DNA of 53,444 nt, taken from positions 1-53,444 of the forward strand of contig MCFE01000607.1 of NCBI GenBank assembly GCA_002104905.1, read 5' to 3'. This document shows, piece after piece, positions 19,951-52,485 of the stretch. The position numbers and the translations under genes are program-made. Each line of letters opens with the position of its first letter. Positions within the stretch are counted from its first letter, which is position 1. The stretch is from Basidiobolus meristosporus CBS 931.73. Lineage: Eukaryota > Basidiobolomycota > Basidiobolomycetes > Basidiobolales > Basidiobolaceae. Under the pieces are notes generated by a model. That model saw only the letters and a list, made by a program, of their open reading frames with translations, did not search any database and was not told where the DNA came from.

Positions 19951-20201
19951 GTAACCAGCAAGAGCCTGTATTCTTCGTAAGAAATCTGAATCAAGCTTAC
20001 TTAGCATTGACAAGAGCCCAACGAAGCTTTTGCCAACGACGATTTATCCAACTGTAGAATAGTAGTAAATCGTTACTGTGGAAACGTCCTCCGTAGTGAG
20101 CCTGCGAACATTCGTCCTCCAGTTTTATTTCCTCCTTGGATTTTGATTGAAAATCGAGTCAAATACCGAACATTTCTCAGCGTAAAGGTTTCTGTGAAGC
20201 A

Positions 20202-21828
20202 ATGTTGAATAAGCTGCTCCTCAGTTTGCTAGCTGCTTTCTCGCTTGGCACCATATTCGCGGTCCAAGTGGAAGGACAAGCCTGTGACCAACCAAGAGTT
20301 CGCAAAGAAATTCGTGAGCTTAGCACCGAAGAATGGAACGCATACATTGGCGCTGTCAAAAAGCTGCACTCCGGACCAGCCCCTACTGCGTATGATAAAA
20401 TTGTGGCTATTCATCTCAGAAATGTACCTCAAGCACACAATGTCCCATGCTTCTTCCCATGGCACAGAAAGTACATTAGAGAGTTTGAATTGGCGCTACA
20501 AAGCATCGACAGCTCCATCACTTTGCCATACTGGGATTGGAGTCTTGATTCCCAAGCTCCAGAAACCAGCTTGATATTCACACCCGAGTATTATGGTTCT
20601 AGTGGTGAATCACCTTGCATTGAAGAGGGGCATTTCAAAGGCTGGCAGATGTCCGTCCCAAAGCCTCACTGTCTGAAAAGGCAATGGAATAGAGGCAAGA
20701 AAATCAGTGCGCTGTATCCGCCCGAGTTGCTTTCGAAGATTATCACCGGTGCGAAATCTTACAACGAATTTCGGGTCGCCATCGAGGCTGCTCCTCACGC
20801 GCTAGTTCATGTTAATATTGGTGGCGAAACCGGGGACATAGGAACTATGTGGAGCCCAAATGAGTAAGTTGATGCAGATGAATCTCCTGTCCAATTAAAC
20901 ACTAAAATTACTTGGAAATAGCCCTTTATTCTGGTCACACCACGCATTTGTCGACAAAATATGGGCGGATTTCCAGTTTCTCAACCCAGTTTTGGCTCAT
21001 GATTATGGCGGATTCAATAGCAATAATGTCTCGGTTTCAGCGGATGAAGAAGTTATTCCGTTTGGTATAACAGTGGCAAGCACCTTTGACACCAGTTCCC
21101 CAGAATTTTGCTACAGCTACTCGAACACCGGTATTATTGCCAAAAGCCCCCAGGCAAAACCAGCAGGCGCTGCGACCCCACCGCCTACCGACACCCCCAA
21201 TCCCGCAAACACGGCCCCTACAACTCTACGCCGCCGTCGTTTTCGACGCGGTAACCATGCCTACTCAGCTAAGCCACCAGCGCAAGAATCGTATAGCAAC
21301 TCTACCACGACCCCTGACAAGGACTGCTACCTAAATGCAGACGACCGTGAAAACGCCAAACACCTACGTATTCCCCCACCAGTACCTGAAGCATGGGTAA
21401 AGATGAATGGGTACACTATTGAACAAGTTCGTTCATTCGAAAGTGAATACTCGAACTTCATCGCAAATCTCAACAAGGATCCGAACTATGTTTCTCCTGT
21501 ATCTTTAGAGCGTCATGACGGCATCGTAACAAGCCTGACTGAGGGTACCCTAGAGTCACTGGGGTTGTTTGATGGGCTATCGGAAGAGCCAGTGCTAAAT
21601 TTGGAAGAGCCACTCAAGTTGGTAGACAACATAGTGAATACAGTTACCGGCACTATTGATGGCGCTTTGTCACCTATACTGGGAAATGATGAAGAAGGCG
21701 GTGGCTTGCTAGGAGGTGTTTTAAATACTGTCAGTGGGATATTCAAGTCCTCAACTGGAAAAAAGAGCACCAAGGAGCCATCGGAGGAACCAGAGTCTGA
21801 TTCCCTTGGTGACCTTGGCTTGATTTAA
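20202..21828 (+). CDS. Secreted tyrosinase with long C-terminal extension
   Basis: Two exons, 20202-20863 and 20922-21828 (58 nt intron), encode 522 aa. Residues 1-26 form a signal peptide (MLNKLLLSLLAAFSLGTIFA). The type-3 copper centre is complete: CuA histidines H71, H79 and H88 (the last in FFPWHRKY), and CuB H199 and H203 (HALVHVNIGG) with the third in DPLFWSHHAFVDKIW after the splice. LPYWDWSLD is the usual linker. The enzyme oxidises monophenols and o-diphenols to quinones, typically for melanin. After the catalytic core (to about 290) come a Pro/Thr-rich spacer, an Arg cluster (RRRRFRRG) that could be a processing site, and about 170 residues ending in a Gly/Ser/acidic tail (NTVTGTIDGALSPILG) that may act as a shielding propeptide. 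Start chosen for the signal peptide. Confidence 0.92.
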
Positions 21829-25339: not shown

Positions 25340-26752
25340 CTAGATTGGCGGTAATCGTATTGGGTAATCGTTGGTCCATCCCTTATGACGAAGAAATCGA
25401 GGGAAGGTCTGCTGGAGCATCATATCCAAGACCTCTGCAATAGCTTGGTCAAATAGCGAGCTCCCTATATTCCCTGTTAGTATGTCTTTGGATATTTGGT
25501 GGGATGTTTCTGAAGTAATGTTGATTTCGTAGTCTGCATTACTTGCGATGAATAGTCGATAGATTTCATGTGCTTCCTGGTAGGTGCTCTCACAATTTGT
25601 AGAGGAGCAGTTGCGTTGCTCCAAATCTTTCATATCGAGGATCCACTTGTTGACACGGTTATAAAACAGCGGGTTCTCAACACTGAAGTCGCGCACGCTA
25701 AATGCATGAAACTCCTGGAACAAGTGGGAGTCGGTAAGCAGTTCTTCAAATAATGAATGTGCGCATTTCTTCGAAGGGTGTACGGCCAAAAATCGACGTT
25801 TTTCGCGGAATGGAATGAACACCGATATCCAGTACATGCACATGCACATTACAGCGGTCCACATCTGGTTAGGAAACACTCGCAAAAATTCTTTGTCCTC
25901 GTTCAGTTCGGTGGACAATAGGCAAGCAAGTGTCCCCACGGTTCCAGCACCAATATCCCACAGAACCTCCAGGCGCATATCATATGCATCCTTGATGCCT
26001 CTGATATAGAGTAGGATAACCGGCAACACACCTAAAGTGTAGAGTATGAAGATTCCAAGTATGGGAGACCAATACCAGTTGTTCACACAGACTTCAACTG
26101 TAGTGTTGGGGGAATATCCCTTATCGGCTCTATTTAAAACAACATGCAAAACGGTGGCAAGGATGCAGTGTGGGATCATCCACACAATAATACCTATTAT
26201 ATGTGCCTTTGGAGTGAGCAAGCGACGGAGCCAACTTCCTTTCGGAAACAGATTACGACTTAGTACTTCAGTAGTTGAGTTCAGGTAGGAGTTGTTTTCA
26301 CTATCAAGACTTGGGTACAGGGAGGTGTAGGTAACGATTCTTTCCGCACCAAACCTGTACAGGATAATAAGCCTGATATGTTTGACCAAAGTAGTGATAA
26401 TCCATAGAGGAAGGCAAAGATACAAGATCCAAAAATACACAAAGCACATATATTTAGACGATAGGGGGCCTGAAAGAATGATATTTACAGTAACAAGGAG
26501 GTTGGTCAGTGCATTGACGAAGAACAGTGGGACACTCCGGTATTTAATGCTGGGGTAGTTGATATTTTTCATGAACAGGTAAGCTGAGATTACAACGAAC
26601 ACAGTCCAAACGCCAGCCACTACGAAGTAAATGACGTCAATCGCTTCGGAATCCATTAGTCTCAAGGGTAGAGCAAGCAAGCATTCAGTAGTATCGTAGG
26701 AAGCCCCGAAACCCTTATATACTACAGCGGACGGTAGAGCCTCAGCACTCAA
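25340..26752 (-). CDS. Seven-transmembrane receptor with C-terminal RGS domain
   Basis: Intronless, 470 aa. Seven hydrophobic segments can be picked out: about 38-60 (IDVIYFVVAGVWTVFVVISA), 75-95, 100-125 (CFVYFWILYLCLPLWIITTL), 185-205, 230-255, 268-285 and 300-320, with the N-terminus outside. The cytosolic tail (about 335-460) is an RGS domain: SLFEELLTDSHLFQEFHAFS at the start, AHEIYRLFIAS in the middle and SSLFDQAIAEVLDMM near the end. RGS domains speed GTP hydrolysis by G-alpha subunits, so this protein could sense an extracellular ligand and switch off its own or another G-protein pathway. The layout is that of plant RGS1 and of fungal RGS-type receptors such as Aspergillus GprK. The ligand is unknown. 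Absence of introns contrasts with most neighbours. Confidence 0.88.
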   Translation of the reverse strand: MSAEALPSAVVYKGFGASYDTTECLLALPLRLMDSEAIDVIYFVVAGVWTVFVVISAYLFMKNINYPSIKYRSVPLFFVNALTNLLVTVNIILSGPLSSKYMCFVYFWILYLCLPLWIITTLVKHIRLIILYRFGAERIVTYTSLYPSLDSENNSYLNSTTEVLSRNLFPKGSWLRRLLTPKAHIIGIIVWMIPHCILATVLHVVLNRADKGYSPNTTVEVCVNNWYWSPILGIFILYTLGVLPVILLYIRGIKDAYDMRLEVLWDIGAGTVGTLACLLSTELNEDKEFLRVFPNQMWTAVMCMCMYWISVFIPFREKRRFLAVHPSKKCAHSLFEELLTDSHLFQEFHAFSVRDFSVENPLFYNRVNKWILDMKDLEQRNCSSTNCESTYQEAHEIYRLFIASNADYEINITSETSHQISKDILTGNIGSSLFDQAIAEVLDMMLQQTFPRFLRHKGWTNDYPIRLPPI

Positions 26753-29385
26753 GGGAAGATGTCAAGTTGTACAGGGTATGCCACCTCCATATTCGGGAGA
26801 CCAGTTACAGTTATAGAAATACCGATCATTTACTCGCCAATTGTGGTTCCCGAGTTCTAATTCGCAACAATGAGTGTTTTCTGTTAGCAACACAGAGATT
26901 GTAATTTTGTTCTGTTGCAGGATCCTAGATTACGATCTGATTGTGAACCAACCAATGATCCTGGATATTCGTCTGTGGTGAGTTATAAGTTATTGTGCAT
27001 ATGTATCAAACCCAGCAACAAAATTCGGACTTGCATTCCAAGTTCTAGAACGGCTAGTTACAAGGACTTTGTGACAAAAGAGCAGCAGCGAATTTTGGGG
27101 AAGCAAGCGCCTAGACATCGGAGAATGTTCGAAATTGGTACCGATCTAAGAGTGAAATATAGATGGAGTCACAGCCTGCCCTACTGGAAAAGCATTCATG
27201 ATTTAACCCATTAAATCTCCGAGGCATCACACTCCATCTGTGTTTGTTTGATCTTCTATAATAAGCACTGCCCTAGGCACTTGAAATCTATATAAAGTCA
27301 GAGCTTAGTCATAAGATTGGCTACAAATGGCATCTCGTGAAAATGGCTTCGCAGAATTTTGATTTAATACTGTTTCTGAACATGAGCGTGTACCATCCAT
27401 AGTAATCCATCGACAGTCAATCACTCCTTGTAAAATACTATTCCAAATGTTGAGGCCTAGTGTGTCATGGACTCCAATAATTTGTGCATTTCTGCACCGA
27501 GAAAAGGCCCCAACAATATACAGTGGAGTGCATCAAATATTCCTCAGTGAAAATCATCCGGATAATTCACCCCTTCTGCCGGGGTTCGGGCTATATTGCG
27601 GAGCGACGCTTCTGTGGTGTGGGAGATTGGCGGCAATATGTTTTCCAAAATCAGCCCTAGACAGTATACAACAGAGAGAATATCTTTAAGCAACTGTACT
27701 TCAAGGCATTCGCATCAGAAGACTATGGAAATGCTGTGGTAAATGGAATTGAGCAAGCTTACCCGAGTCTGTTACGGCGATAAATTCTTGATATGTTTCA
27801 TCGCCATCTATTAGGCTGAGTTAATACATTACTATTTCAAAGAGCAAATAGGAAGTTGGCAAGGTTTACATTAAGGCGTTGCGTAGCTTTTTATGTAGCA
27901 AGGTATGTCTCAGCAGGGTAGCTACTGGCAGGGTTGTCCGATAGATAGAGCAACTACAAATACAAAGGTAATTCTGCACCCATCTTTGACAATGAGTGTT
28001 TTATGGATATCTATCAATTTTGGAAGATCCTCAAATAAAAACCTTGTTTGCTGTCAATCTTTCTTAAAGCCATAAAGACCGATATGGCCCTTATGGTTGC
28101 TTTTGCCAACTTAATCGATCACTGAATGCCGTATTCTGTCCACATTGTGTTCCGAAAGACGACCAGATACTTAGGCACGGAAAATGACTTTGGAGTCTTC
28201 TGATGGCTATATTGATTGTTCTGGATTCTAGTACATGATATCAATAGTAAGATAAATTGCCTTCACCAAATACCCGCGTTTTCTGCATTGGGGATTAATC
28301 TATTGCTTTGGCGTTAACAATCACCGTGGGATATTCCTACACGATGTGCTTACATATATGTTCAGACGCGTACAAGGTTGGCAGTTGCTCTTGATACATC
28401 ATCCACCCAAGTAGGGAACGGGGAGCCTGATTTTTATTGGAGGCAGCCATCACGAAAACACTTTGACCATGGAGCATCTGATGCATATTGAAGAACTGCC
28501 AGGGCTGATAATTTGACAATTCTGTCAGTCCTTTTGTCGCCTGTACCATGCAGTAATGCCGTGTCAAGCATCGTCCATTCTCGAAGTATCGAATCATCAT
28601 CAGTATATACATAACCCAACATCAGGCTTGCATTACCAAGATACCCCAGTCAGTTTGGGTTTTTAAGCTCTACAGCCCTGTATCCATATTTTGGGGGACC
28701 CTCCAATGAGGCGTCTCATTCAAGCAATCACATGCACCAACTTATCTCTGTGACGGCTGTTCGTTTATTCAGGATGGATATCGATTATATTGTGGTCCAA
28801 GTCATTGACAAAGATGGCCAGGCCAGGTAGGTAGGTTCAATAGGCTCTATCAAGCAGGTTTCATTACTACCCAAACTCAAACTGATGATCTGTTAACAAC
28901 CTCTCCCCCAGATGGGAATATCCGACATCAGGATATTTATTTGGTTTTCTATAGTAAAAGGAGTACGTCAAAAATTTCTGTCATCTGCCCTTCTTTTTCA
29001 TTCAGTTGATTACGCAACCGTATCGCGCTTATCGCATCTCGCACCAAATACACTAAATGAAAAACGTAATTATTCATCCATGGTGTATCAAATACCTCAG
29101 CACTGTCATTCGTGCCAAGAGGCATTCGGTGGTCACCTACACATACACGATTTGTTGATCAAGCTTCATGAATAAAAAAATACCTTGCTTATTCATTTAG
29201 CTGGTATATGAATTTCAGGTCACCAGTGACAATTGGCCAAATGCTACATCCTCGATCATTGTTCGCTAGACCTTATGGATGTGACAAAAGTTGCCCATTA
29301 AATAAATCTCGCCTAGGAGTCTTGTTATCCATTCTCCTGGTTTACGTCGGATACCTTTCTGCAGTTAACTCTACCTCCTTGAACC
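26753..29385. other. Intergenic, no gene recognised
   Basis: 2.6 kb between the divergent receptor and Pom33 genes. Small frames (26915-27214, 27447-27689, 28337-28612, 28912-29175) have no motif or splice partner. Confidence 0.5.
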
Positions 29386-31122: not shown

Positions 31123-31413
31123 ATGTTCTCGTTTACACGGTTAATCTCTCGAAGAAATCGCCCTTATTTCAAGCTGTTGTCCAAAGCATCCTTAGGGCGC
31201 GATCCCCGCGGCGTTAGTCACCCATCGCAAGTTTCGATCTTTGAAGAACTCGAGAATATCATGAACAGAAACTCCTTTCAACGATTTTCTGAACAAGAAG
31301 TAACCTTGAGTAAAGAGAAAGAGATGGAATTAGATCTCGCCAAGCTTTCTGGCCTTCTTCAAAAATCATCCCTGTATCGTATGGAAGCTCAAGACTATAT
31401 CGCCATCTCCTAA
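31123..31413 (+). CDS. Small paralogue 1 of an unrecognised clustered family
   Basis: Intronless, 96 aa, family not recognised. The N-terminal 25 residues are basic and hydrophobic (MFSFTRLISRRNRPYFKLLS), which could form an amphipathic helix or a targeting peptide. Residues about 38-96 are the shared core: FEELENIM, then QRFSEQEVTLSKEKEMELDL, then AKLSGLLQKSSLYRMEAQDY. The same pattern recurs in the genes at 35543, 37104 and 38985: R-[FY]-x2-Q-x-[VI]-x-L-[ST], an acidic E-[MLF]-[DE]-[LI]-[ED]-L-A stretch, L-[ST/A]-[GA]-L-[LI], and a basic turn before Q-[DE]. It is convergent with WASP; only about 400 bases separate the stop codons. Confidence 0.75.
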   Translation: MFSFTRLISRRNRPYFKLLSKASLGRDPRGVSHPSQVSIFEELENIMNRNSFQRFSEQEVTLSKEKEMELDLAKLSGLLQKSSLYRMEAQDYIAIS

Positions 31414-31814
31414 AACAATAGCTTTGCTCTACCCGCTGTCGTGAGATATACATAAATCCCTTATAGTACCAGTTGATTACCATCAGATGTACATATATAA
31501 ACCACGTTGTATCGCGTTCTACTCCAATCAATTGCTTGTGCGTATAACCATTTACATTTCAAATAAGTCAACTTGTTCCCAAGATGGACTCATCATACAT
31601 CCCAGTTAGCATTTGGTCCTGATATCACGACGCAGTTGATACTGCTTCTAAGGTTGGCCAACTTTGGCTACTTGTTGCTGCAAATGACTGACGGTATGTT
31701 ATATCTATTAAACTTCTTTTTGCTTTCCATTGCAGCGAACCTTTTAAGCGCGTTCAAATGTCAAATGATCACTATTCCAAGATTTTATTGTAAAAAAGCA
31801 TGACTAAATTTCGG

Positions 31815-33870
31815 CTAGTCGTCGTCGTCCCAATCATCATCATCTTCATCATCTTCGGAATCTATTAGAGTATTATTAGTTTAGGAAAAAGATGTTTGTC
31901 AAAAATATCTGAAAAATCATACCTGAATGCGCCAAGACTTTGTTTCTGGCACTTAATGCACTGGCTAATGCCATTGCCAGATCACTACCACCAGCAGAGT
32001 CTTCCACAGGACTGGGAAGCTTAGGTGATGCTGCTTCAGTACGATCCACACGTTTAAGCGCACCTACACCTCCAGCATCACGAATACTAGCCAAGAGCAT
32101 ATTGCGATCATTACCAGGTACAGGTAAAGAGTGGCCTGAATTGCCTCCTGCTGGAGGCGGTGGGGGTGGTGGTGGTGCAGCAACACCCATTGGAGGAGGT
32201 GGCGGCGGGGGTGGTGGTGTACCCGCAGCCATTGGTGGTGGTGGGGGTGGCGGCGGTGGTGGCGGTACATTACCACCCATTGGAGGGGGTGGTGGGGGTG
32301 GCGGTGGTGCAGTAGTGTTCATTGGTGGCGGGGGTGGTGGTGGTGGTGGTGGTGGTGCAGTAGCACTCATTGGAGGAGGTGGCGGCGGGGGTGGTGGTGT
32401 ACTCACAGCCATTGGTGGTGGTGGTGGTGGTGGTGAGGCTGGGGTTCCAGTACTCATTATAGGCGGTGGTGGTGGTGGTGGTGGTGGTGGTGATTGCGCT
32501 CCAGTATTCATAGAAGGTGGTGAGTGAACTCCCACGCTTGGTGATAATGCCGGGGCATTTATCATAGGATTAGAGGCTGGGGGTGATACGCGAACTGGCG
32601 GTGGTGCAGGAGGATTACTCTTATTCTGAGCAACCGCAGATGCTCTAGTTGCAGGAGGCGCTGGGCCTCTGGTACTACGAGAAGGTGGTGGTGGTGGGGC
32701 CTGACGGCGTGATGCTGGAGGTGGTGGCGGGGCATTCTTTCGAGCAGCTGTTTATCGTATTGGTAAATGGAATTTTACGAAATTATTGATATAAACAAGT
32801 ACCTGGTGGTGCCGGAGTATTGTTCACAGCACTTGCGGCAGGTTTGCTTGCAGTCGAAGTGCCTGGGGCAGCTCCAGGGCCACCACGGTCTTGTACGTAT
32901 TGGAAAATAAACTTTTGAGTCTCCTTATCCGCAAGTTGTTCTTTACTTATACCAAGTTGGCCTAGTTGGTCAAATAGTTTCGTCCATTCAGGATCAATAT
33001 TCTCAGTCTGTTAACAAAATTAATTAAAGCTCATATTCTTCCAGGTAGAGGTCTTAAAACTTACACTAAAGCCTGTATCAGGGTCAAATCCTATATGACC
33101 AACATGTCTAAAATCGGATGGCCCACTAATCATGGACTTGTCAAACTTTCCTTTCGCCTTTTTCCCACTAGAGCGAGATTGGGTGAAGAAAAGCCCTGAC
33201 TTGGCTGGCTTAGAAGAGCTCTCGCGTACCGTTTTGGATTCTATATTTAAACAAGTAAGAGAAGATCCGGAGAGCAATAAATGAGTTATGTTTACTTTTG
33301 AGTTTTCCACTCTCCTCTCGTTTAGACACTTTTTTGTAAAATACTTTTGCCTCATGTTCATCCGCAAAAGAGAAAGCAGCGGAGCAATTCTAAATAACAT
33401 AAATAAGAAATGGTTTCTCTTACATCTTGAAATACAGAAACTACCTCTAAAGCAAAAGTGTGAAAGAAAGGACGCTCATCAACGTACTGAAATCCCTCAT
33501 ACAGCTCTTGCTCCCAGATGATACCGTCGCTTCCCTAATTAAAGTATTGTAGCGATCAGTTCTACGTTCTGAGTACATTTTTGAGGAAACTTACGTTAAG
33601 ATCCACGATGCGAAAAAAGTAGGATCCCGTAGCTTTATCTCCAACAAATGCCAGTGCACCCATGATGCCGGTGTAATTCCAAACTGCTGGATCAGGATAT
33701 GCTACATACAGCCTAGCAACTGTAGCGGTATGGATTTTCTAAAAATTACCAGTCAGTGATCTTTATCGTTTGGCAATAATAATACGAGTAAATATTACGT
33801 TCTGTGAGGAAGGTAAAGCTTTTTTAATCTTGGCTTTATCATCTGCTTTAGGTAATGTTTTCGAAGGCAT
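31815..33870 (-). CDS. WASP/Las17-type Arp2/3 activator
   Basis: Eight exons (33799-33870, 33595-33738, 33445-33534, 33296-33389, 33065-33240, 32803-33007, 31923-32747, 31815-31861) keep phase and give 550 aa. Domain order: WH1 (about 25-130; TATVARLYVAYPDPAVWNYT, GIIWEQELYEGF, FHTFALE), basic patch, CRIB/GTPase-binding motif (ISGPSDFRHVGHIGFDPDTG), a helical stretch, a long run of proline tracts (SH3 and profilin ligands), one WH2 (NMLLASIRDAGGVGALKRV) and a central-acidic tail ending DEDDDDWDDDD with the Trp that contacts Arp2/3. The protein binds Cdc42-type GTPase, recruits G-actin and switches on Arp2/3 branching at endocytic patches. Its own target subunit, Arp3, is encoded 7.3 kb away on the same strand. 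Unlike yeast Las17 it keeps the CRIB motif. Confidence 0.93.
32155..32510 (-). repeat. Coding polyproline repeat within WASP
   Basis: Eight proline tracts of about 7-11 residues are separated by short spacers of the type PMxxxxP (PMAVST, PMSATA, PMNTTA, PMGGNV, PMAAGT, PMGVAA). On the plus strand this reads as GGT/GGC/GGA/GGG arrays. The unit is about 36-50 nt and near-identical between copies, so its length is likely to vary between strains and to be assembled poorly. Confidence 0.8.
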
Positions 33871-34482
33871 CGAAACCGAAGGATGTAGGTCAAGCTACTA
33901 GTTACTGGTTCGAAATACAGCGTATATATTCAATTCTTTATACAAGACATGGCTGACCTATCAGCACCATCCTATCACCATCGTGTAACTATATTCAACA
34001 AATCAGGTTATCTAACCGAATTTCCATAGCGAATGATATTACACCATTTGTCTTTTGAAGAAATCGTTCATGACTAAAACTAGTCTCAATTGCAAGATGG
34101 ACTAGGAAACCATGTCTAGCATATAGGTGTAGCTATATACGCTTCAAGATGTACGTACCAAGTCCACTCGTGGATTTAGGGTGAACAAACCGTAGTAGTA
34201 GTGTGCGCAACAATAAAATCAAGACGGCATATATCCAATCAGCTAATAGAGTGACCCGTATATTCGTATAGCTTTAATCAGGATCTTGCAATATTTTCAA
34301 GCAGCTACGAGATATATTAAGAATCGCTTTGAGAAGCTGTGGCTAATTAATCTGCAGAATCAGTGCTTGTAATATGATTCAGATCAATAATTTCATTCAT
34401 AACACATATGAGGTAGGTCTCCAGTGGATTACCTAGATTACTTAGCACAGCTTGGTGACTACGCAAGCCCTTAAATATGCAT

Positions 34483-34494
<12 letters not shown>

Positions 34495-34522
<28 letters not shown>
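34495..34522. repeat. (AT)n microsatellite
   Basis: About 14 uninterrupted AT units, preceded by an imperfect ATACATAC stretch. Confidence 0.9.
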
Positions 34523-34525
<3 letters not shown>

Positions 34526-34802
34526 CTCAATATTCCGCTGAATATAGCCAATACTACGAATCACTGTCTCTTCAGGCCCGCATCCGTCTGGTAAAATGAA
34601 CTCAAATCAAAATAGCATATCACGCCTGGCATAGGTACTAGACAAAATCACTGAACTTTCTTGGGTGTAATTAATATGGATGCACACTAGACTTGACGTA
34701 ACACATACACCCATCATCTGACCGGATTGAAATACAAAAATGTGACTTATGATTTCGACATCTCTTACCACCAGGTTGAAATACCACCAGCGGTATCCAT
34801 AG

Positions 34803-34849
<47 letters not shown>
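34803..34849. repeat. Compound (AT)n(GT)n microsatellite
   Basis: About eight AT units run straight into about sixteen GT units, followed by ATGTATATAGAG. It is a candidate polymorphic or Z-DNA-forming site. Confidence 0.9.
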
Positions 34850-34852
<3 letters not shown>

Positions 34853-35480
34853 ATATAGAGAGTATATGCATCACGCCCAGCGAGATTTCTTTGTATTCCT
34901 GGGTGCTACTCGAAGTGAACGATCACTTTGAATTTTCAAATAGCCTAGACTCATTTTTGACATCATGTGAGCATGAGAGTCTTGTGAGTAACCCATTGCT
35001 AAGAATGCATTATTTCTGAGGACTCCCAAGGATATGCAAGTACTGATCAGCGGCGCTTGTGCTCGTACTCTTGGCTGCTCCTCAGTTCATGTGATATCGT
35101 CAGCGTAATCCTGGTATATTACAGGTGTTACACGGTGTCCAGAGTTTAATCGGCAGTTAGATTACTATCATCGGCATTACAAAGCTAACTAATCTAGTCA
35201 TAATTTATATTGCCACAAATAATACTTTTATTATTCGTATTTCAAACTATCCTCAGCTGTCTAACAGCAATAACTTGTTGATTTGAAACCAATTTGTACA
35301 CTAACGGGTTACTTTTGCTTTGTTTCACTCATTTGACACTCAAAAATCCGGACTCCAATCCCGAACTACAGATAATCCCAATGTTTGTGTAAGGTTGAAC
35401 AGGCCAAGGGTTAGTCTCATATTACAAGCGCAATGATATCATGTGAATTCGGCACCTCGCCAACACCACTAGCTATTCAG

Positions 35481-35488
35481 TATATATA
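35481..35488 (+). promoter_or_regulatory. TATA box of small paralogue 2
   Basis: TATATATA lies 55 nt before the ATG at 35543. It is the clearest TATA box of the four family members. Confidence 0.55.
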
Positions 35489-35542
35489 GACCATACAAAG
35501 CATCAGTAACATCATTCACATTTCATACTCGGCTTGTAAAAT

Positions 35543-35872
35543 ATGGTTTGTCCCAAGTTTCTCGTCTTCAAAAAACTACCCTTTCCAAAACTCAACGCCA
35601 AGTCATATTCCAACTATGGCAACGAGAAATTCGCCAAGCTAAACTCAACTTCAACCTTGCCTTTACCCTCGGAGAAGCTGATGCAGACCAACGATATTCA
35701 GGACGAGTTTTCCTGGATTTTCGACCGGCCTGGCCTACAACGCTATCAAAAGCAAGATGTGGAGCTCACTGAAGAAAAGGAGATGGAGATCGAATTAGCA
35801 GGGCTGGCGGCTCTTCTTAACCGTGGGCGATCACGTCGCTTTCATTGCCAGGAATTCTCTGCACTATCTTGA
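35543..35872 (+). CDS. Small paralogue 2 of the clustered family
   Basis: Intronless, 109 aa. The N-terminus is basic and hydrophobic (MVCPKFLVFKKLPFPKLNAK), then a Ser/Thr-rich linker, then the shared core from about 53: FSWIFDRPGLQRYQKQDVEL, TEEKEMEIELAGLAALLNRG and RSRRFHCQEFSALS. Compared with copy 1 the core keeps the acidic helix (EMEIELA) and the position of Q before the acidic residue, but replaces the SG of LSGLL by AA. No signal peptide cleavage site is obvious. Function unknown. Confidence 0.75.
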   Translation: MVCPKFLVFKKLPFPKLNAKSYSNYGNEKFAKLNSTSTLPLPSEKLMQTNDIQDEFSWIFDRPGLQRYQKQDVELTEEKEMEIELAGLAALLNRGRSRRFHCQEFSALS

Positions 35873-37103
35873 TGCCACTGTAATATTTCAACCTTGTACT
35901 TCTGTATTTTACTTTGTTAAAATGTACTTTTCCATTTATATATATACATATGCACCCGTACTCTTAACCATTACCTGTTTAAACACAAACATTTGTTTAA
36001 AATAAACATCATATCAGCATTAAGCATGAACCATAAGAAGCCGAAACCCTATTATTGTGAATATGATATCTCAAGAGAAGCTTGGAATCCCAGACCAGGG
36101 TCTTGTCTGTTGAAGTCCGATACCACTCCACTTTATCACCAAAGCGTATGCAGATGCGTGTGCTTAAAGAACACTCTGATTCATGTTTTCGATTATTGAT
36201 AGTGCATCCGCAACAAATGGCGCTATATCCCATTACCCGTTCTCCAGTAGTGTGTCAGCCATCGCGTCTAAGCATCCGCACTACCCCCTACAGTTATTAA
36301 AAATTGACGAGGCCATTTAGCCATTGTTCACCCATGTAGGTGGTTCAAATCTTGCAATAGACTGATGACAGATCATATGATCAGTAGATCTAGAGATTAT
36401 TCAAGACATAATATGCGGCAACAATTATAGGGCTTGTAGTCTGTGGAACTCATCAAAAGACTTGGCAGTTGCTCACAACGATCGTCGAATCAAATGTGCC
36501 CGCGCCCCATGATTCATCACTGGCTTAAAAGCTGGACTGATCGTCACAATACCTTGGATACCAATGAAATGCAACCATAGATCAAGCACTCTACTTCATC
36601 ATCTTGTACACACAACACATCAGACCAACTAACCTTATACCATGGGTTATCTCGAAGAGTGGAACCCATTGTTTGAGACCAACGTTACGGATTGGGCATC
36701 CATCCTAGAGTATACTCATTATGTCTGTTAAGCCAATATAGCCTTCTAAGCAATGACAGTGCGCCAGTAGCTGAAATACAGGTTCGAAACAGGAAATATA
36801 AACCATCCTGCCATTGGAATCCAATCACGAAGTCAGGACTACATATGGCGTACTAAACTATCTTCCTGATAGAAATACATGTTGAGGCTCAAATAGTGTT
36901 TATTTTTGCTCACTGGCGATATTTCAGTGAGCATCGATTATGCGTCGAATTCCTGCTTATTTACAACATGTATCAGTCATCACTTGGTATTTTGTTCGAT
37001 ATTTACACTAGATACGTAAGAAGTTGGGGTGGAATCACCGGCTCTTTCATTAAATAATGACACAAGCCATTTTGGAGTATGTAAAGGCTATTGGTCTTGA
37101 GGT
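35873..37103. other. Intergenic, tail-to-tail between paralogues 2 and 3
   Basis: 1.2 kb. A 29-codon frame at 36642-36731 (+), MGYLEEWNPLFETNVTDWAS.., reads like protein but ends without a splice partner. No other feature was recognised. Confidence 0.5.
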
Positions 37104-37445
37104 TTAGTGTTGAATACTGCAGTCTTGTGACTCAAGGCGATGCCTTTCTCCTCGTATTAATAGCCCAGTAAGCTTGGCCAACTCAAGGTCGAGCTCCTGA
37201 GATATGCTTAGATGAACATCCTGCTCAGAATACCGGGTCTTTGTTGCGTACTCCAGAATGTGTTCGAACTCTTCGATCGCTTCAGCATAAATAGACACCA
37301 TAGAGTTTGGAGTTGCGACACCGTTCACCTTCCTGGCACCAAAAGCGGGAATGGGTGTATGGGGAGAGCTACCTCTTGGATTCGATTTTTGCTGCTTTTT
37401 GCTCTTGTCAGCTTTATTGTTGGTAAAAAGGTTGAGGGATTGCAT
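37104..37445 (-). CDS. Small paralogue 3 of the clustered family
   Basis: Intronless, 113 aa from the ATG at 37445; an in-frame ATG at 37469 would add eight residues. I prefer the inner start because it puts the TATA-like element about 41-49 nt upstream. The N-terminal half is Lys/Ser-rich (NNKADKSKKQQKSNPRGSS), more hydrophilic than in the other copies. The core begins at about 58: EFEHILEYATKTRYSEQDVH, LSISQELDLELAKLTGLLIRG, then RHRLESQDC. It shares RYSEQDV and the LELAKLTGLL stretch with copies 1 and 4. Function unknown. Confidence 0.75.
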   Translation of the reverse strand: MQSLNLFTNNKADKSKKQQKSNPRGSSPHTPIPAFGARKVNGVATPNSMVSIYAEAIEEFEHILEYATKTRYSEQDVHLSISQELDLELAKLTGLLIRGERHRLESQDCSIQH

Positions 37446-37485
37446 CTTGGAAGAAATTTGGTAAAGCAAATATGGCCTGAGTCGA

Positions 37486-37494
37486 CGTTTAAGT
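37486..37494 (-). promoter_or_regulatory. TATA-like element of small paralogue 3
   Basis: ACTTAAACG on the minus strand, 41-49 nt before the preferred start. It is a weaker match than in copies 1 and 2. Confidence 0.3.
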
Positions 37495-38984
37495 ACATTT
37501 CAACCTGAAATGTTTAGGTAACACCATCATTATAATACTACACAAATCTCCGAGTATGGATATCAAAAAGAGGCTTATAAGACCAAAGCACCTTAATCGT
37601 TACACAGTACCTTGACATAAGGGCGTTCTATGATGTAGAGGATATTAATCATTCAGGGTCGCTATCGGGTTGTCTATGTACAAACTTCAAATTTTTGGAA
37701 CCGTGTAACATCTACTTCTGAGAGTAAACCACTTACTATTCCTAAATTGTAGCCCATTGTTCGGCTCAAAGGCATCCAAATTCGTAAGAAGAATGTTTTA
37801 GGAATTGCCTTTTATACTGTTGGCATCGATGGATATTCTGTATAAAACGTTAATATCCTTAAATTTCAATATGACTTTGGCATTGGCTAGTTGTAAGCCT
37901 ACCTGGACCATTACCATCGATAAAGAGAATCACATGAGTGACCAGAGCTATTTCTGTTTCTACGATAAAGGATGCTGTTTCCAAGTATAACTTTGTGGTT
38001 CCGTGACATAGCTTCCAAATATATATTCCCTGCTGTTTGTGTATTGTTTGTTTATGGCTTTGTGTAAATTGATGGTTTCAAATAAATCACTTGCATTTCA
38101 TATTGAAATAATGAGGGGAAATATTCGAAAACGTCCCCAGGCCAATCGGTTCTGGGGATTTGATTGGCTTTGAGACTGTCCCACTTGACACATCGCCCAA
38201 GTCAGTCGCAGAAACAGCAGAGATTCCGTAGATTTCTATATATGGTTGATGGTAGATGTAGTTATAGCAGCTTACTATAAATCCATCAAAAGAACAGTCC
38301 GATTGATCGGTACCCTAATCAGAAAGAGCCTTGTCAGAATACATTTGAATTGATCAATGATTATATGCTAGCCCATTCACTTGGTGTAAGGTTTAAGAGA
38401 AGCGGATGTTCAATCATACCATCTCATATAGATGAAGCGGCACAAAATATCTGGATAGTCTCAATATGGGCCTGTAGGCGGCAATGATGGAAATCAATTT
38501 GTCGCAGAACAGTTTCGAATTCTTCATGACCCTATTATGAGTACTAAGAGCCTCGACTATACAAGGACTTAGGATAGTCAAAGTGACACTCCAGGGTTGG
38601 GTCTGTTTGTTGTATTAAGAGCGGGCACTGGCTGCATGGCGCCGCCTTTTGCTTTATTGACCGTGCATGTGATCCCCACACAAACTTAAGATAGGATGGT
38701 TTTACGATTCACGAATGGATTCAGAAGGACTAAAGGTATAATAGAAAAGTGCCAAGCTTGGTTACAATAGCGAGTTCAATGCTCTGGGTAGAGAACAATG
38801 GTTTTTGTGAAGGTTGGCGAGTATTAACAGAAAATTAGAACAAGTTAGGGCAATTAGGTGTTAAAAAAGTTGATATGCACATGAGAAGTCGAGGCCGATA
38901 CATTGGGCTGATAAAATACAATCACCTCCCCAAGGATATATATTTACAAGAGCAACATGATAAAGCATGATGCTTCCGACTGTC
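37495..38984. other. Intergenic, no gene recognised
   Basis: 1.5 kb between two paralogues on the same strand. No frame over 61 codons and no remnant of a fifth family member that I can see. Confidence 0.5.
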
Positions 38985-39317
38985 TTATGCGATCATCAGA
39001 CACTCTTGATCGCCAAGTCGGTGCAGGGCGCTTTTCTCAATAAGCCCTGTAAGTCTTGCAAGCTCCAGCTCAAACTCTAGCTCAGGTGTGAGTTCGATAT
39101 GCTGGTCATCAAATCGTTGGAGTTTTGACGAAGTCAAGAGCGCTCGCAGCTCTTCAAACATATCCAGCGTAGTAGTTTCTGAGATGACAGAGTCCACAAC
39201 TGATACATTATCATTTAAAGATGGAGTGCAGATTGCGTTTGATTTCTTTAGTAAGAACTTGGCGCGCCGAGAGATTTTGAAGCGTCTTGCGATACGTAGA
39301 AGATTTCCTGAAACCAT
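38985..39317 (-). CDS. Small paralogue 4 of the clustered family
   Basis: Intronless, 110 aa from the ATG at 39317; an in-frame ATG at 39338 would add seven residues. The first 30 residues are strongly basic and amphipathic (MVSGNLLRIARRFKISRRAK), the most mitochondrial-presequence-like of the four. The core from about 53 is FEELRALLTSSKLQRFDDQH, IELTPELEFELELARLTGL and IEKSALHRLGDQECLMIA. It is closest to copy 1 in the FEEL start and the spacing to QRF. Function unknown. Confidence 0.75.
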   Translation of the reverse strand: MVSGNLLRIARRFKISRRAKFLLKKSNAICTPSLNDNVSVVDSVISETTTLDMFEELRALLTSSKLQRFDDQHIELTPELEFELELARLTGLIEKSALHRLGDQECLMIA

Positions 39318-39382: not shown

Positions 39383-41198
39383 CTGCGAGTTAACAGCAAG
39401 AGGCGCTTCAATGAGGCTTATACTCGCAATTATTCCAATTCCAAGTCAAATTGATCTATTTTGGGCAATGACATGGGGTATTTTCATCAACTGCAGAGCG
39501 TTGGCTTGAGGGGAAAGCATTCGCTTAAGTATTAATTGATATTTTGCAATAGTTTTCAACACCACTCCTTGGAACCTAGCTACTCTTCATCTGCTATCTT
39601 AAGGATAATCACACTATCCCTAGGCTAAATTCTCTAACAGGTTTTGCATGAACCTTCTGAGTGAAACATATTTGCATGCTAATCTAATAAGCGTTAAGGA
39701 TATATCAAGTGGTTGCCCAGCTACTTAAACCATCGATGGCCATATACAGTATCCAACGGCAAGTGAATACATGATGTAGTCTTCAATTGAATACTCCCGC
39801 ACATGATTCTTAAAGGGGGTAATAACAAAAGTACATGGTCGAAGTTGGGCAGCCGCCCGAAGATTTGTACTCTACAACGGCGATTAGCGGCCCAGTACTC
39901 AGCATGTTTCGAGATGAGGTGATTGTGGTAGGTCCATGAAGCGCAAGGTTGTGGAGAGCAACTATGCTAGCCGTGCAGCAGTATCAGCTCAAACCTAAAA
40001 AAATGCGAGTCATTTCTTAGACCTTGGTGGCTTTTTTCAAGTGGAGTAGCTTACCAGGCGCCTATGGCAACTTGGGAATTCCACCACCATGTTGGGTAGA
40101 GTTTCACACCGGGAATTTAATTGACACGTTGATTCACATTGTTATTAATTTTCCGTAGTATGTTACTAATGGTATGATGGATAACGACAGCCTTGCGGAA
40201 TTAAAGCTCCTCGTATTGGAATAATTGCGTTATTCGGGTCTGGAGGCAAGGAGATGTCGAGAGATAGTGTTTAAAGCCTGACTTCGAGGTTTCATACAAA
40301 AGTCTAGGCAAAGCCAAGAGTCATACTAATGTTTCGGAGATGGAGGCGTGGAGTAAGCACTAGGTTGAGATGGGCAACTCTGGTTTCGTGGTTGAGGTTT
40401 GAGCCATATCATTGCTACTACTCAATCATTAGCCAAATATATATTACCAATTTTGGAATTGGTGTATCAATCGAGTCTCCATAAGTAAAAATCCAAGTGA
40501 CAGATTGATGAAAACTAATGTTGCATATCCATTTGATCTAGCACTTGAAACTTGTTCCATACACAGGCTATGTTATCTAACGATTCCCAAGAAACTGTTG
40601 CGTGCGCTTATGCGTCAAATGGCTAGAAAGCACCGTATATATAGTCAATGAAATGCTGCTGTTATGCAATTTCATATAGTGTTGAGTATTTAAAAAGCAT
40701 CGCATCGAAGGCCCGAAGTGGCCTTGGGATCAAGACTCAGTTTCCCTTAATCATTGCTTCATCCATTCTTGGGTCAAATCTATCCAGTTAAGCATGATCT
40801 ATATACACTGCGCGATATTTTGTGATACAAACCTACTACAACTTTGAAATCCAACTCAATATATTATTGGCTTATTTTCGCTCTACTTTGGTATACAGCG
40901 AACTGTTACTTGGCCTCAATCCAGAATACGCTGGAGATGTACAATATTCACTCTGTTAGGACGCCTCGAAGAGTACCTGGTGTGGTGTTGAATATTTGAA
41001 ATAGGAACCTTGGCTGCAATCGCTTACCGGTCGATGTGGAGAAAACGATAGTTTATTGAGATTTTACGACTACATCCAAAGATAGAGCCATCTCATAAAT
41101 TTACTCAGAAACATCGACCTGTTGTTGAACTTAAATTCATCTATGAGGTTGGGAGAAATTGCTAGAGGGGGTAATTGAATGACGGCTTCAAGTGGAGC
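39383..41198. other. Intergenic, no gene recognised
   Basis: 1.8 kb between paralogue 4 and the 3' end of ARP3. No frame longer than 60 codons and no repeat was recognised. Confidence 0.5.
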
Positions 41199-42922
41199 TT
41201 AAGCAATGGAATTGAAAACACGGTTGTGTCTACAAATAGATGGTCCATACTCCTCATATTCCGCTTTGGTATGGCTAAATGAATAGAATTGGTCCTACAT
41301 TTAAAGCGCAAGTTAATACCAAATTCTAAAGTACAAAACATCAAATGCTCACTAACAGTAGTAGCCATTAAGCTGCCACCAAACCACACAGCGTATCTCT
41401 GTTTCTTGTGGGCAATTACATTAACATCAAGGGGTGTAGCCTTGTATAGAAGTATACCATTAGCAAACGCGGCGATTGAAGAGAGCTGATTATTACTAAC
41501 CTTAAGATGACCACCACTAAGCTCCTCACTTCTCTTCACGCGGCCGTCGACAATTCTTTTGATATCACGCTGAAGACGCTTCCCAAAGTCTTTGAACATG
41601 GTGGAGCCACCAGAGAGCACGATATTCTACAATTCACGTTCAATATTAGGTGCACAGTAGCAAGGAAGGGGTCAAAAAGACGACTAATACCTTATATAAA
41701 CCACGTCGAGTATCGATTGGACTGCTCTGAATAACATTGTCAACTACCTCGGGCAAAGGAGTTAAGAAATCGGAGCTTATGATTTCAGGGTTGAAGAAAA
41801 TCTCAGGCGCAAGGAATCGCTCATAACCAACATCTACTTGATATGACTAATGGATTGTTAACTTGGAAGAGTGAAAAAAGTGTGTAGTGGAGAGGTGTAC
41901 CTTCTTGGTAATGCTGTGAACGGCGTCAAATTTTTGGAAATACTTGTCTCCTTCTTGATCGTATCTCTGAAACTCTTTGACAATATCTGGACAAACATAT
42001 GCGTATTTCTCCTTAATACGCTTCGCGATTTCCAAAGAGTCTTCAGGTGGTATTTGCGTCTCGTTATGCTCACGCAATAGCTGTTGAACAAATGCAGTAA
42101 GATCACGACCAGCAATAGGTATATGCTTGATCGAGCTACCGACTACGTAACCCTCGGCCTGGAATATTTGTTGGGCGTTAAAACATTGCGGCAAAGGCTT
42201 TGGTTGATATGAACGTTAAATACTTTACCACAGGAATTACGTGAGTTACACCATCACCACTGTCAATTACAGTGCCGGTTAGGCTTTTCTCAGTGGATTT
42301 TCCTGAAGTCCAGCTAGCAGCTAAAGCCAATACAGCCTGCACTGCAATATAAAGCCCTTGACAGTTGAACGACTCAAACATGATTTCTGCTGTTTGTTCT
42401 CGATTTTCAGGAGCGTTAAGGGGTGGCTCGGTCTTGTGGAATAAAATACTCAGAACTTAATACTAAAATCCTCTAATTACCAACACACGCAGAAGTAATG
42501 TATATTCACCAAAAGGAAATAATGGTCTTCGGGCTGGCAACGAAGGTACTTGAAGATGCATTGCTCCCAGTATCTTTCCATGTAATCCCAGTTCTCGATT
42601 TGCCCGTGGCGGATAGGATAATTGATCCCGTAGGTTTTGGAGTTGGCCAAAGCTTCATCCCCAATGAAAAAATCAAGATCATCTATCCCACGTTTGGAGG
42701 CAATGTTGCTTGCTTTCTTCGAAATCCCGTCACGAGTGGCAATAGCAGTAGGAATCACATAGGATGGCTGAGTGTTGCCAGAGAATCCCATTTTCGTATA
42801 ACTATTCCATTGGCAAACATTAAAAGCAACTTCTTGGCGAAAAAAAGAGAAGGAACAAGGGGCGTAAAAGGAATTGCTTACCCAGTACCATTGTCGATGA
42901 CTACAGCAGGTAGGTGTGCCAT
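41199..42922 (-). CDS. ARP3: Actin-related protein 3, Arp2/3 complex subunit
   Basis: Eight exons (42882-42922, 42510-42801, 42229-42432, 41901-42158, 41691-41846, 41501-41626, 41357-41440, 41199-41294) keep phase and give 418 aa, the same length as human ARP3. Typical stretches are [17 protein letters not shown] (phosphate loop 1), [44 protein letters not shown] (phosphate loop 2), [38 protein letters not shown] (nucleotide pocket) and the C-terminal [13 protein letters not shown]. Arp3 with Arp2 forms the pseudo-dimer from which an actin branch grows once a WASP acidic tail binds. WASP lies downstream at 31.8-33.9 kb on the same strand. Confidence 0.97.
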
Positions 42923-43361
42923 GTTGACCCAAAAGAAAAAAGTATATAATTGAGAGAGATAGTCCTGGAAACTGTTTAGTTTAGACTATCTCTTGATGTG
43001 CAAATACATGGATTCAATCAACATGCACTTAATTCGAGTTCGTCATCATTCAAGCACTTACTGTCCCTACCGACTCAGACCCTGGCACCCTAAATTTAAT
43101 ATCGAGAAAAGAGAAATATATGCCTAATCCCCAAGGTGAGGTGAGGTCAATCGAGCCTTAAAGTTTGGCAATATCTAGTATGAAAGGATTAGGCCCAATA
43201 CAAGAACCGTCTCTAGAAACCAAATGGTAAATACGCACCACACTTGGCGACATTGGGTATGGTCAAGGAAGCAAAGATTTATTGATGAATTTCCAATTTT
43301 CGCTCAGTTTATGACAAACTAGGAACTAACTTCCGAAAATAAGACCGAGCATTCAGTAAAC
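42923..43361. other. Intergenic, ARP3 promoter region
   Basis: About 440 bases between the RPL30 stop and the ARP3 start. It must include the ARP3 promoter. No clear TATA or other site. Confidence 0.5.
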
Positions 43362-47536: not shown

Positions 47537-47858
47537 AATACTCACCTAGCTTAGTCACTTAGATCATCACCTTCATATCCTAGAGAATACTGGCCAAACT
47601 CCTTGTTGGGATTTACTTGGAAAATTTTGCACCAAAATATCAGGTACCCAGAACATGAAAATTCTCAAAGTTGTCCAAACAGCTCTAAACTCTGCACACA
47701 TGTCCTTGGGACCTTCCTTAACCTATTCTACGTGTTTGTAATGCCAAACCATGTAAAAGTATAAATACTACTTTTACATTCAATAAATCATTAAGTGATA
47801 ACCACATAATCTACTTGTTCTCCAAATCACTTCCAATATCTCCAAGACTCTTACAACA
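47537..47858 (+). repeat. 5' LTR of the Ty1/copia element, 5'-truncated
   Basis: Lacks about the first 27 nt compared with the LTR start at 51845. It contains the likely core promoter (GTATAAATACTACTTTTACA) and ends with TCTTACAACA followed by the primer binding site. Confidence 0.9.
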
Positions 47859-47871
47859 GGCTATGAGCCCC
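47859..47871 (+). promoter_or_regulatory. Primer binding site, initiator-tRNA anticodon-loop type
   Basis: GGCTATGAGCCCC starts one base after the LTR. It is complementary, with about one mismatch, to the anticodon stem-loop of eukaryotic initiator tRNA-Met (GGGCTCATAACC), as in Drosophila copia, where an internally cut half-tRNA is the primer. Confidence 0.6.
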
Positions 47872-47889
47872 AAGCTGTCACTCTCTGCA

Positions 47890-49290
47890 ATGTCTACTAC
47901 TGCTATTACTGGGATCTTTCCCTCTGCTGAAAAGTTGGATGGATCTAACTACCAAGTGTGGAAGGTGAAGATGAAGATGCTGCTACAAGAAAGAGGCCTT
48001 TGGGATATTGTCATGGGAGAAGAATGCCCTCCTAAAAACGTGGGAGAGGAAGCCTTAAAGTACCAGAAGAAAGAACAAAGTGCCTTTAACTGCATTTGCC
48101 TTAATGTCAAGGACAAATTGCTAATTCAATGCTCAAGAGCAAAAATGGCAAAGAATGCCTGGAAAGCATTGGAAGACACCTACCAGTCATGTTCAGCTGC
48201 CAAGAAGATGTATCTGAGACAAAAATTCTTTACTACAAAGATGCTGCCAGGAGAAGAAATGAAAAATCTAATTAACAGAATTACCCTGCTGGTAGATGAG
48301 ATGGAATCTGTGGGCTTACCAACTACTGATGAGGATGTGATAGTTACCATCCTGAATAGCTTGACAGACACGTTTCAGGGCCTTGTATCAGCCCTAGAGT
48401 CCAGAACTGAAGATTTGACCTTAAATTACGTATATGGAAGGCTCCTGGATGAAGAATTAAGAAAATCAAGCACCAATAAGAAGGAAGAAGAAAATACTTT
48501 AATAAGCAATGATAACCAACAAAGGAGGTACCCAAGACCCTACAAAGGCAACAGCAACCTATTTTGCAACTACTGCAAAAGGAAAGGACACACATCAGAC
48601 CGGTGTCTCAAAAAGAAAGATAATCAGCAAAAGAAGCCTGAATATGGAAATGCTACAACAACTGAAGATAGACCATTCATATCTGCACTAAGTACAACCA
48701 CAAACAAGGATTCTCAGATGTGGTATATTGACTCTGGAGCTTCTCAACACTTTACACACCAAAAAGAACTTTTTACCAAATATCATGAAATTCCAATTAA
48801 GAAGGTTCTAATAGGTAACAATAGAACACTTGATGCAGTGGGAGAAGGAACTATCCAAGTAAACCTTAGAAGCAGTGAAGGAAGCCATACACTGACCTTT
48901 AAAGAAGTACTCTATGTACCAGAAATAGCCAAGAACCTACTCTCTGTAAGCAAGGCCACAGCAGAAGGACTCAGTTTCAGTTTTGACAATTCTGGATGCA
49001 GGATCACTGATCAAAATGGTGCCCATATTGCTTTGGACATCACAGATCAGAATCTATACAAGCTGACTTATATTCCATCATATTTGGAAGCCAATATAAG
49101 TAACTTAAATGAAGAAACACCAATGCTTTGGCACAGGAGATTTGGACACATCAATTTTGATTATTTGCACAAAATGATCAAAGATCAGCTATTTTCTGGA
49201 GTGAAAATTGATCCCCCAGCTAATTTGGAGCACTGTGAAGCCTGCATATATGGAAACAAGCCAGACAACCGTTCAAGAGCTCTGGGTTAA
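47890..49290 (+). pseudogene. Gag-protease part of the copia polyprotein
   Basis: The gag region starts with MSTTAITGIFPSAEKLDGSN and YQVWKVKMKMLL (UBN2/DUF4219-type copia gag). It has a single CCHC zinc knuckle (CNYCKRKGHTSDRC) and the retropepsin active site WYIDSGASQHF, followed by the pre-integrase HHCC-type domain (LWHRRFGHINFDYL, CEACIYG). It ends in a TAA at 49288-49290, one nucleotide out of frame with the integrase. An ATG at 47863 lies inside the primer binding site and is less likely to be used. The same TAA in the same context occurs in the second copy at 53245. Confidence 0.9.
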
Positions 49291-51833: not shown

Positions 51834-51835
51834 CT

Positions 51836-51844
51836 GAGTGGGAG
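51836..51844 (+). promoter_or_regulatory. Polypurine tract
   Basis: GAGTGGGAG lies immediately before the TGTTG of the 3' LTR, the standard plus-strand primer position. Confidence 0.75.
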
Positions 51845-52137
51845 TGTTGTAAAAGTTTGTATTTCCACCTAAATATTCACCTAACTTAGTCACTTAGATC
51901 ATCACCTTCAAATCCTAGAGAATACTGACCAAATTCCTTGTTGGGATTTACTTAGAATATTTTCACCAAAATACCAGGTACCCAGAGCATGAAAATTCTC
52001 AAAGTTGCCCAAACAGCCCCAAACTTTGCACACATGTCCTTGGGACCTTCCTTAACCTATTCTATGTGTTTGTTATGCCAAGATCAGGTAAAAGTGTAAA
52101 TACTACCTTTACATTCAATAAATCATTAAGTGAAAAC
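51845..52137 (+). repeat. 3' LTR of the copia element, 3'-truncated
   Basis: Starts with an intact TGTTGTAA and matches the 5' LTR until CATTAAGTGAAAAC, where it stops short of the last about 57 nt and meets a reverse LTR. Confidence 0.9.
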
Positions 52138-52485
52138 TGTTGTAAGAGTCTTGGAGATATTGGAAGTGATTGGGAGAACAAGTAGATTATGAGGTTTTCA
52201 CTTAATGATTTATTGAATGTAAAAGTAGTATTTATACTTTTACCTGATCTTGGCATTGCAAGCGCATAGAATAGGTTAAGGAAGGTCCCAAGGACATGTG
52301 TGCAAAGTTTGGGGCTGTTTGGGCAACTTTGAGAATTTTCATATTCTGGGTACCTGGTATTTTGGTGAAAATATTCCAAGTAAATCCCAACAAGGAATTT
52401 GGTCAGTATTCTCTAGGATTTGAAGGTGATGATCTAAGTGACTAAGTTAGGTGAATATTTAGGTGGAAATACAAATTTTACAACA
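52138..52485 (-). repeat. Full-length LTR, reverse orientation, between two element copies
   Basis: 348 bp, bounded by TGTTGTAA and TTACAACA. On its left is the truncated 3' LTR, on its right the gag interior of another copy, with no LTR remainder. It is nearly identical to the reverse LTR at 47187-47536. Confidence 0.9.

Follow-up and report, generated by a model that had tools for sequence, protein, structure and literature searches.

The window analyzed here, the whole 53,444-nt contig MCFE01000607.1 of Basidiobolus meristosporus CBS 931.73 (contig C877 in our genome search), carries between positions 31123 and 39317 four small genes of one protein family. They were first described from the letters alone as four paralogues with a common C-terminal core, and the list of open reading frames (ORFs) confirms intact frames of 96, 109, 113, and 110 codons starting at 31123, 35543, 37445, and 39317, respectively. 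The genes and their cores are located as follows.

31123..31413, + strand: family member 1, 96 amino acids (aa), intronless (ORF list, paralogy, tree)
31237..31401, + strand: core of member 1, two ~32-residue units of a helix plus R[YFL]xxQ[DE]
35543..35872, + strand: family member 2, 109 aa, orthologue of Basidiobolus ranarum K7432_010919
35699..35860, + strand: core of member 2 (alignment, profile scan)
37104..37445, − strand: family member 3, 113 aa; nearest relatives, B. ranarum K7432_010917 and the pair on contig C676
37116..37280, − strand: core of member 3 (alignment, profile scan)
38985..39317, − strand: family member 4, 110 aa; nearest relatives, B. ranarum K7432_010915 and K7432_000861
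38997..39161, − strand: core of member 4, with limits taken from the alignment with member 1

Local alignment identified the four genes as true paralogues, with pairwise scores of 87 to 137 against shuffle maxima of 46 to 57; the observed score was reached by none of 500 shuffles in any of the six pairs. The 37445 protein, used as a genome query, recovered the other three at E values of 8.3e-8, 4.6e-5, and 5.1e-4. Both the C-terminal core and the residue pattern proposed for it in the original prediction hold in the four-protein alignment, which has 12 invariant columns, i.e., Met1 and, in the numbering of the first protein, E42, R54, Q58, L62, E67, L72, A73, L75, L78, R86, and Q90. A profile scan retrieved the four genes at E values of 2e-25 to 6e-24, a circular result as all four are in the profile, and the six-frame scan of 1352 open stretches of at least 25 aa uncovered no fifth copy in the window (next E value, 1.2).

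The family alignment comprises 19 proteins, 10 rows from the branch of the window genes and 9 from a sister branch. Invariance across it is limited to Met1 and a single Gln, with a Glu, an Ala, and an Arg close to invariant. Self-comparison of the core at a series of offsets revealed a single sharp optimum, at 32 residues, where the mean BLOSUM62 score is +0.40; the remaining 29 offsets gave at most −0.24. None of 2000 column shuffles reached the score at 32 residues, and the same was true without the R and Q columns. The core is thus a ~32-residue unit present twice, each time as a helix followed by an R-[YFL]-x-x-Q-[DE] loop. L-[ST] stands after the loop and before the next helix, and the second helix is the longer one. 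R[YF]xxQ[DE] closes unit A in the majority of rows from the window's branch, and R[LFYM]xxQ[DE] closes unit B. AlphaFold2 models member 3 (predicted template modeling score [pTM], 0.29) with one helix at residues 46-71 and another at residues 81-112. The mean predicted local distance difference test (pLDDT) scores were 97 and 95 over residues 81-100, 71-77 over residues 51-80, and 72 over residues 101-110, so that the second helix is modeled confidently over its first 20 residues and the first helix with moderate confidence. Foldseek comparison of this short model with PDB returned nine matches up to an E value of 10, the best at 2.9 and none of them meaningful.

We searched the B. meristosporus genome (89 Mb in 1311 contigs) with eleven family proteins as queries and recovered 20 family loci: four on the window contig, three each on C490 and C158, two each on C676, C935, and C658, and one each on C1160, C959, C380, and C3. 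The observation made in the window is thus real, and the family is larger than originally described. The C1160 locus (23447) has a translation identical to that of the C158 locus at 55 kb (55006) and scored equally wherever both matched, so it may be an allele, an assembly duplicate, or a very recent duplication; the two differ by at least one base downstream. C959 and C380 matched some queries only weakly (E values up to 4.3), and their inclusion is based on additional results: used as a query, C959 reaches family members at an E value of 1.2e-6, and C380, which is not in the core profile, scores 56.8 bits against it, with 2000 shuffles at 10.3 bits or less. The C3 locus was matched only by the long protein of C380, with 58% and 53% identity. 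Two weak places, on C25 (E value, 2.8) and C962 (E value, 1.7), were excluded from the count.

Profile searches of 5.8 billion proteins (617, 2840, and 3193 candidates; matches up to an E value of 10) found the family only in Basidiobolus. Besides those of B. meristosporus, they returned at least eight proteins of B. ranarum (K7432_010915, 010917, 010919, 000861, 007605, 008809, 000707, and 008297) and no relatives outside the genus, with the limit that distant ones could be missed because the search needs shared five-residue words. For each of B. ranarum 010915, 010917, and 010919, the source contig is given as 9678 bases long, and the numbering of the three follows the succession of 39317, 37445, and 35543 in the window. 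This suggests that gene order has been kept between the two species; no clear B. ranarum counterpart of member 1 was found. From the sequence comparisons we conclude that the family is of common descent. Our literature searches returned no published description of it, and the available part of PMC8778642 does not mention such a family. As far as these searches can tell, this is an undescribed genus-level protein family.

Proteins of the window's branch have a mostly basic N terminus, a linker, and the core. In the sister branch, a basic N terminus is followed by a knuckle-like motif, CX2CX3HX4C, in 8 of 9 rows and then by the core; the ninth row, C959, carries CX2CX5CX2C instead. Three B. ranarum proteins, P0011, P0012, and P0014, share the CX2CX3HX4C motif. 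It is absent from the window's branch (0 of 10 rows). A long form is represented by P0013 (C380, 258 aa), P0015 (B. ranarum, 257 aa), and a second B. meristosporus copy on C3. It has three cores, no knuckle, and a conserved PPSY near its start (in both of the two long proteins); the core profile matches residues 55-93, 104-152, and 162-213. A unit matrix scan yielded three unit matches in the long form of each species, and no more than 2 of 500 shuffles attained the score of any of them. By eye, the stretches conserved between the long forms of the two species include the R..Q loops. The long-form model (mean pLDDT, 50.9; pTM, 0.31) was too weak for a structure search.

The genes had been called intronless, which is correct for the four in the window, where no introns were found, and does not extend to all relatives. 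At least C380 is interrupted by an intron, placed precisely between the Q and the D that close its middle core, and the model predicted for this gene equals the annotated P0013. C490c contains a GT..AG stretch at the same Q|D place, where an intron is predicted, and B. ranarum P0012 reads VNQVYT there and then stops, as if read into an intron. C158c and C3 may have an intron at this place too, or an insertion, because the frame is open across the gap (48 bases in C3). At C935:24028-25085 and C658:135516-136495, the public models K493DRAFT_345929 and 347119 (P0009 and P0010) fuse two tandem family genes. That these are two genes each is suggested by B. ranarum P0014, which is separate, and, at C935, also by a TATA box and TGTAAATA between the two.

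Among the window's four genes, synonymous divergence (dS) was saturated in all six pairs by the NG86 method used for our estimates, precluding a usable ratio of nonsynonymous (dN) to synonymous divergence. Third codon positions differ most (0.64-0.74, against 0.33-0.48 at second positions). The proposal that protein rather than DNA has been conserved is supported. Duplicates of the knuckle-bearing sister branch are under purifying selection, with dN/dS ratios of 0.09 for C935a and C658a (dN 0.033, dS 0.392), 0.08 for C935b and C658b (dN 0.046, dS 0.568), and 0.16 for C490a and C158a (dN 0.236, dS 1.503). For three of the window's four, such selection is indirectly supported by cores identical to those of the B. 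ranarum counterparts at 39 of 55 (35543), 42 of 56 (39317), and 36 of 55 (37445) positions. The N termini, said in the original prediction to differ, do so between paralogues; the statement does not extend to 35543 and its B. ranarum counterpart, which share 41 of 54 N-terminal residues. The corresponding figures are 21 of 54 for 39317 and 20 of 58 for 37445. In the tree, 35543 pairs with 010919 (support, 100/98). The grouping of 39317 with 010915 and 000861 has support of 92/95, short of the strong mark, and 010917 takes no settled position beside 37445. Only 6 of 23 inner branches are strong, and the order of the subfamilies is accordingly unsettled.

As anticipated, no named domain fits the family, i.e., no Pfam, NCBIfam, or PDB family match rose above cut-off. 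One PDB sequence match of the long form, an ADP-ribosylhydrolase (E value, 0.28), was judged to be chance. Pfam matches under the curated cut-offs were Copper-fist (0.012), Sec3_CC (0.018), an AIR2-like zinc knuckle (0.77), TLN1-like_RS in C935b and two public models containing that gene type (0.0079-0.018), and DUF2024 in three knuckle-bearing proteins (0.05-0.18); two NCBIfam matches of P0014 (0.043 and 0.17) were likewise weak. Rfam reported nothing in the window at gathering cut-offs. The sister subfamily recalls the CCHC zinc knuckle (zf-CCHC) in having Cys, Cys, His, and Cys at short spacing in 8 of 9 rows. However, the CCHC spacing is CX2CX4HX4C and that of the sister subfamily CX2CX3HX4C, there is no Pfam match above cut-off, and the motif is absent from the window's four. 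TPR and HAT helical-hairpin repeats of ~34 residues are similar in period (32 here), in predicted helices, and in the tandem copies of the long form; the present family differs in lacking a Pfam or PDB sequence match and in that its conserved part includes the R..Q loop.

Candidate regulatory sites of the PUF type lie downstream of three of the four window genes.

31488..31495, + strand: TGTACATA, PUF-type site UGUA[ACU]AUA, 75 nt past the stop of member 1
37000..37007, − strand: TGTAAATA, PUF-type site, 97 nt past the stop of member 3
36958-36965, − strand: TGTAAATA, second copy after member 3
38941..38948, − strand: TGTAAATA, 37 nt past the stop of member 4

We scanned 16 of the 20 loci, leaving out the C658 pair and C1160 as near-duplicates, and C3; the downstream scan covered 15 loci, without C158b, whose 3′ end is unsure. 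TGTAAATA occurs on the sense strand within 200 nt past the stop at 7 of 15 loci, with a background chance of 0.015 each. It was found on the other strand downstream at none of the 15 and in the 200 nt upstream at none of the 16. This test is conservative because the background set includes family sites, and the binomial value of 9e-10 is only a guide because the motif was chosen by eye and the genes are related. UGUA[ACU]AUA, a conserved Puf3-type site according to the available text of PMC4654594, follows within 500 nt three of the four family genes of the window (not 35543) and none of five other genes; its downstream frequency is above a background that comes from a small set and for a motif picked after inspection. 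Upstream, 9 of 16 promoters contain TATA[AT]A[AGT] at a distance of 35-100 nt from the ATG (background chance, 0.067), and a count of shared upstream words, made without a control, yielded nothing reliable beyond this TATA box.

Other genes lie around the cluster. A gene at 31876-33475 (− strand), which we take to be WASP-like by its motifs, encodes a P21-Rho-binding (CRIB) domain (Pfam PBD match) along with a proline-rich segment, and actin-family exons at 41162-42980 (− strand; Pfam Actin match), presumably Arp3-like by motif, also flank it. A long open frame at 25340-26761 (− strand), whose product has hydrophobic segments and, at the C terminus, an RGS domain, possibly specifies a receptor-RGS protein, and a tyrosinase-domain protein is encoded at 20151-21828 (+ strand). 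Retroelement pieces at 47722-53245 (+ strand), presumably copia-like by motifs, contain a CX2CX4HX4C knuckle, with the gag part in two copies.

The explanation that we favor, with a little less than even confidence and partly by inference, is that the family encodes small regulated intracellular adaptors or regulators with a shared helical module and variable N termini. The core would fold as a helical hairpin presenting paired R..Q loops to one shared partner, hence the adaptor role, and the variable basic N terminus or CCHC motif may set location or a second ligand (metal, RNA, or membrane). TATA promoters would regulate the transcripts of part of the genes, as would a PUF protein binding UGUAAAUA in the 3′ untranslated region (UTR). 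We consider rather doubtful the broader proposal of a modular helix and R..Q-loop repeat evolved in Basidiobolus, deployed as a single core pair, to which a metal-binding knuckle may be added, or as three, in ~20 related adaptors under joint PUF control. Several observations speak against the adaptor explanation. The AlphaFold2 models are weak (pTM of 0.29 and 0.31 for the short and long forms), so hairpin packing is only predicted. C935a, C658a, and B. ranarum 000707 have lost the last R..Q, making this loop dispensable in one branch. Of the window's four genes, only 35543 has a TATA box, and it is without a PUF-type site. The 3′-UTR motif was noticed post hoc, its frequency in Basidiobolus was checked on 5 genes only, of which one (the WASP-like gene) has an unsure stop, and UGUA is also found near poly(A) sites.

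Among the alternatives, a role as nuclear-encoded mitochondrial proteins, in which the basic N terminus would be an import signal that is cleaved off and the core would work in the matrix or inner membrane, has a modest chance of being correct. The first 20 residues lack acidic residues in 18 of 24 short proteins (member 3 has one) and include at least four K/R in 23 of 24. In budding yeasts and certain other Ascomycota, Puf3 sites are a mark of mRNAs that encode mitochondrial proteins, and the candidate UGUA[ACU]AUA sites past the stops recall this regulon; however, the phylum here is another, and the available text of PMC4654594 documents the link for Ascomycota only. Furthermore, N-terminal helical amphipathicity is on average not clearly above that of shuffles (mean z, 0.27 over 26 proteins; 0.56, −1.77, −0.82, and 0.86 in the window's four), and the long form lacks such a basic, acid-poor N terminus, its first 20 residues holding two acidic and two basic ones in both species. 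That the helices bind ubiquitin as ubiquitin-interacting motifs (UIMs), making the family ubiquitin adaptors whose long-form PPSY could recruit a WW-domain ligase, appears improbable. E-x-E-[LM]-[ED]-[LI]-[ED]-L-A resembles the UIM pattern in its acidic stretch, hydrophobics, and central Ala, which is nearly invariant (A90 of the 19-protein alignment), and PPSY is kept in both long proteins. However, UIMs have a Ser four residues after this Ala, which by eye is found in 1 of 19 rows, the other 18 having G, A, or T, and no Pfam UIM match appeared up to E values of 10, 10, and 1 (HMMER filters can lose short motifs).

Descent from a domesticated retroelement Gag, of which zinc knuckle and helices would be remnants, is less probable still. 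CX2CX3HX4C resembles Gag knuckles, and the copia-like pieces place a CX2CX4HX4C knuckle in the same window; against this, there is no Pfam Gag match, the knuckle-like motif is N terminal with a different spacing, the window's branch lacks it in every one of its 10 rows, and an intron interrupts the gene of the long form. Finally, small size, the lack of introns, and the lack of a Pfam domain would also be expected of chance ORFs or decaying copies, which we regard as highly implausible given second-species counterparts for three of the four genes, dN/dS ratios of 0.08-0.09 in relatives, and shuffled alignments that never reached the score of any pair.

Lineage-specific multigene families are common, and few can be traced from a single repeat unit onward. 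This one can be followed from the unit through its duplication and the gain or loss of a metal-binding-like motif to concatenation into a longer protein, and a second species allows comparison in an early-diverging lineage of which few genes have been studied. Should a PUF protein bind at the UGUAAAUA sites, the family would also point to a set of genes under PUF control in this lineage.

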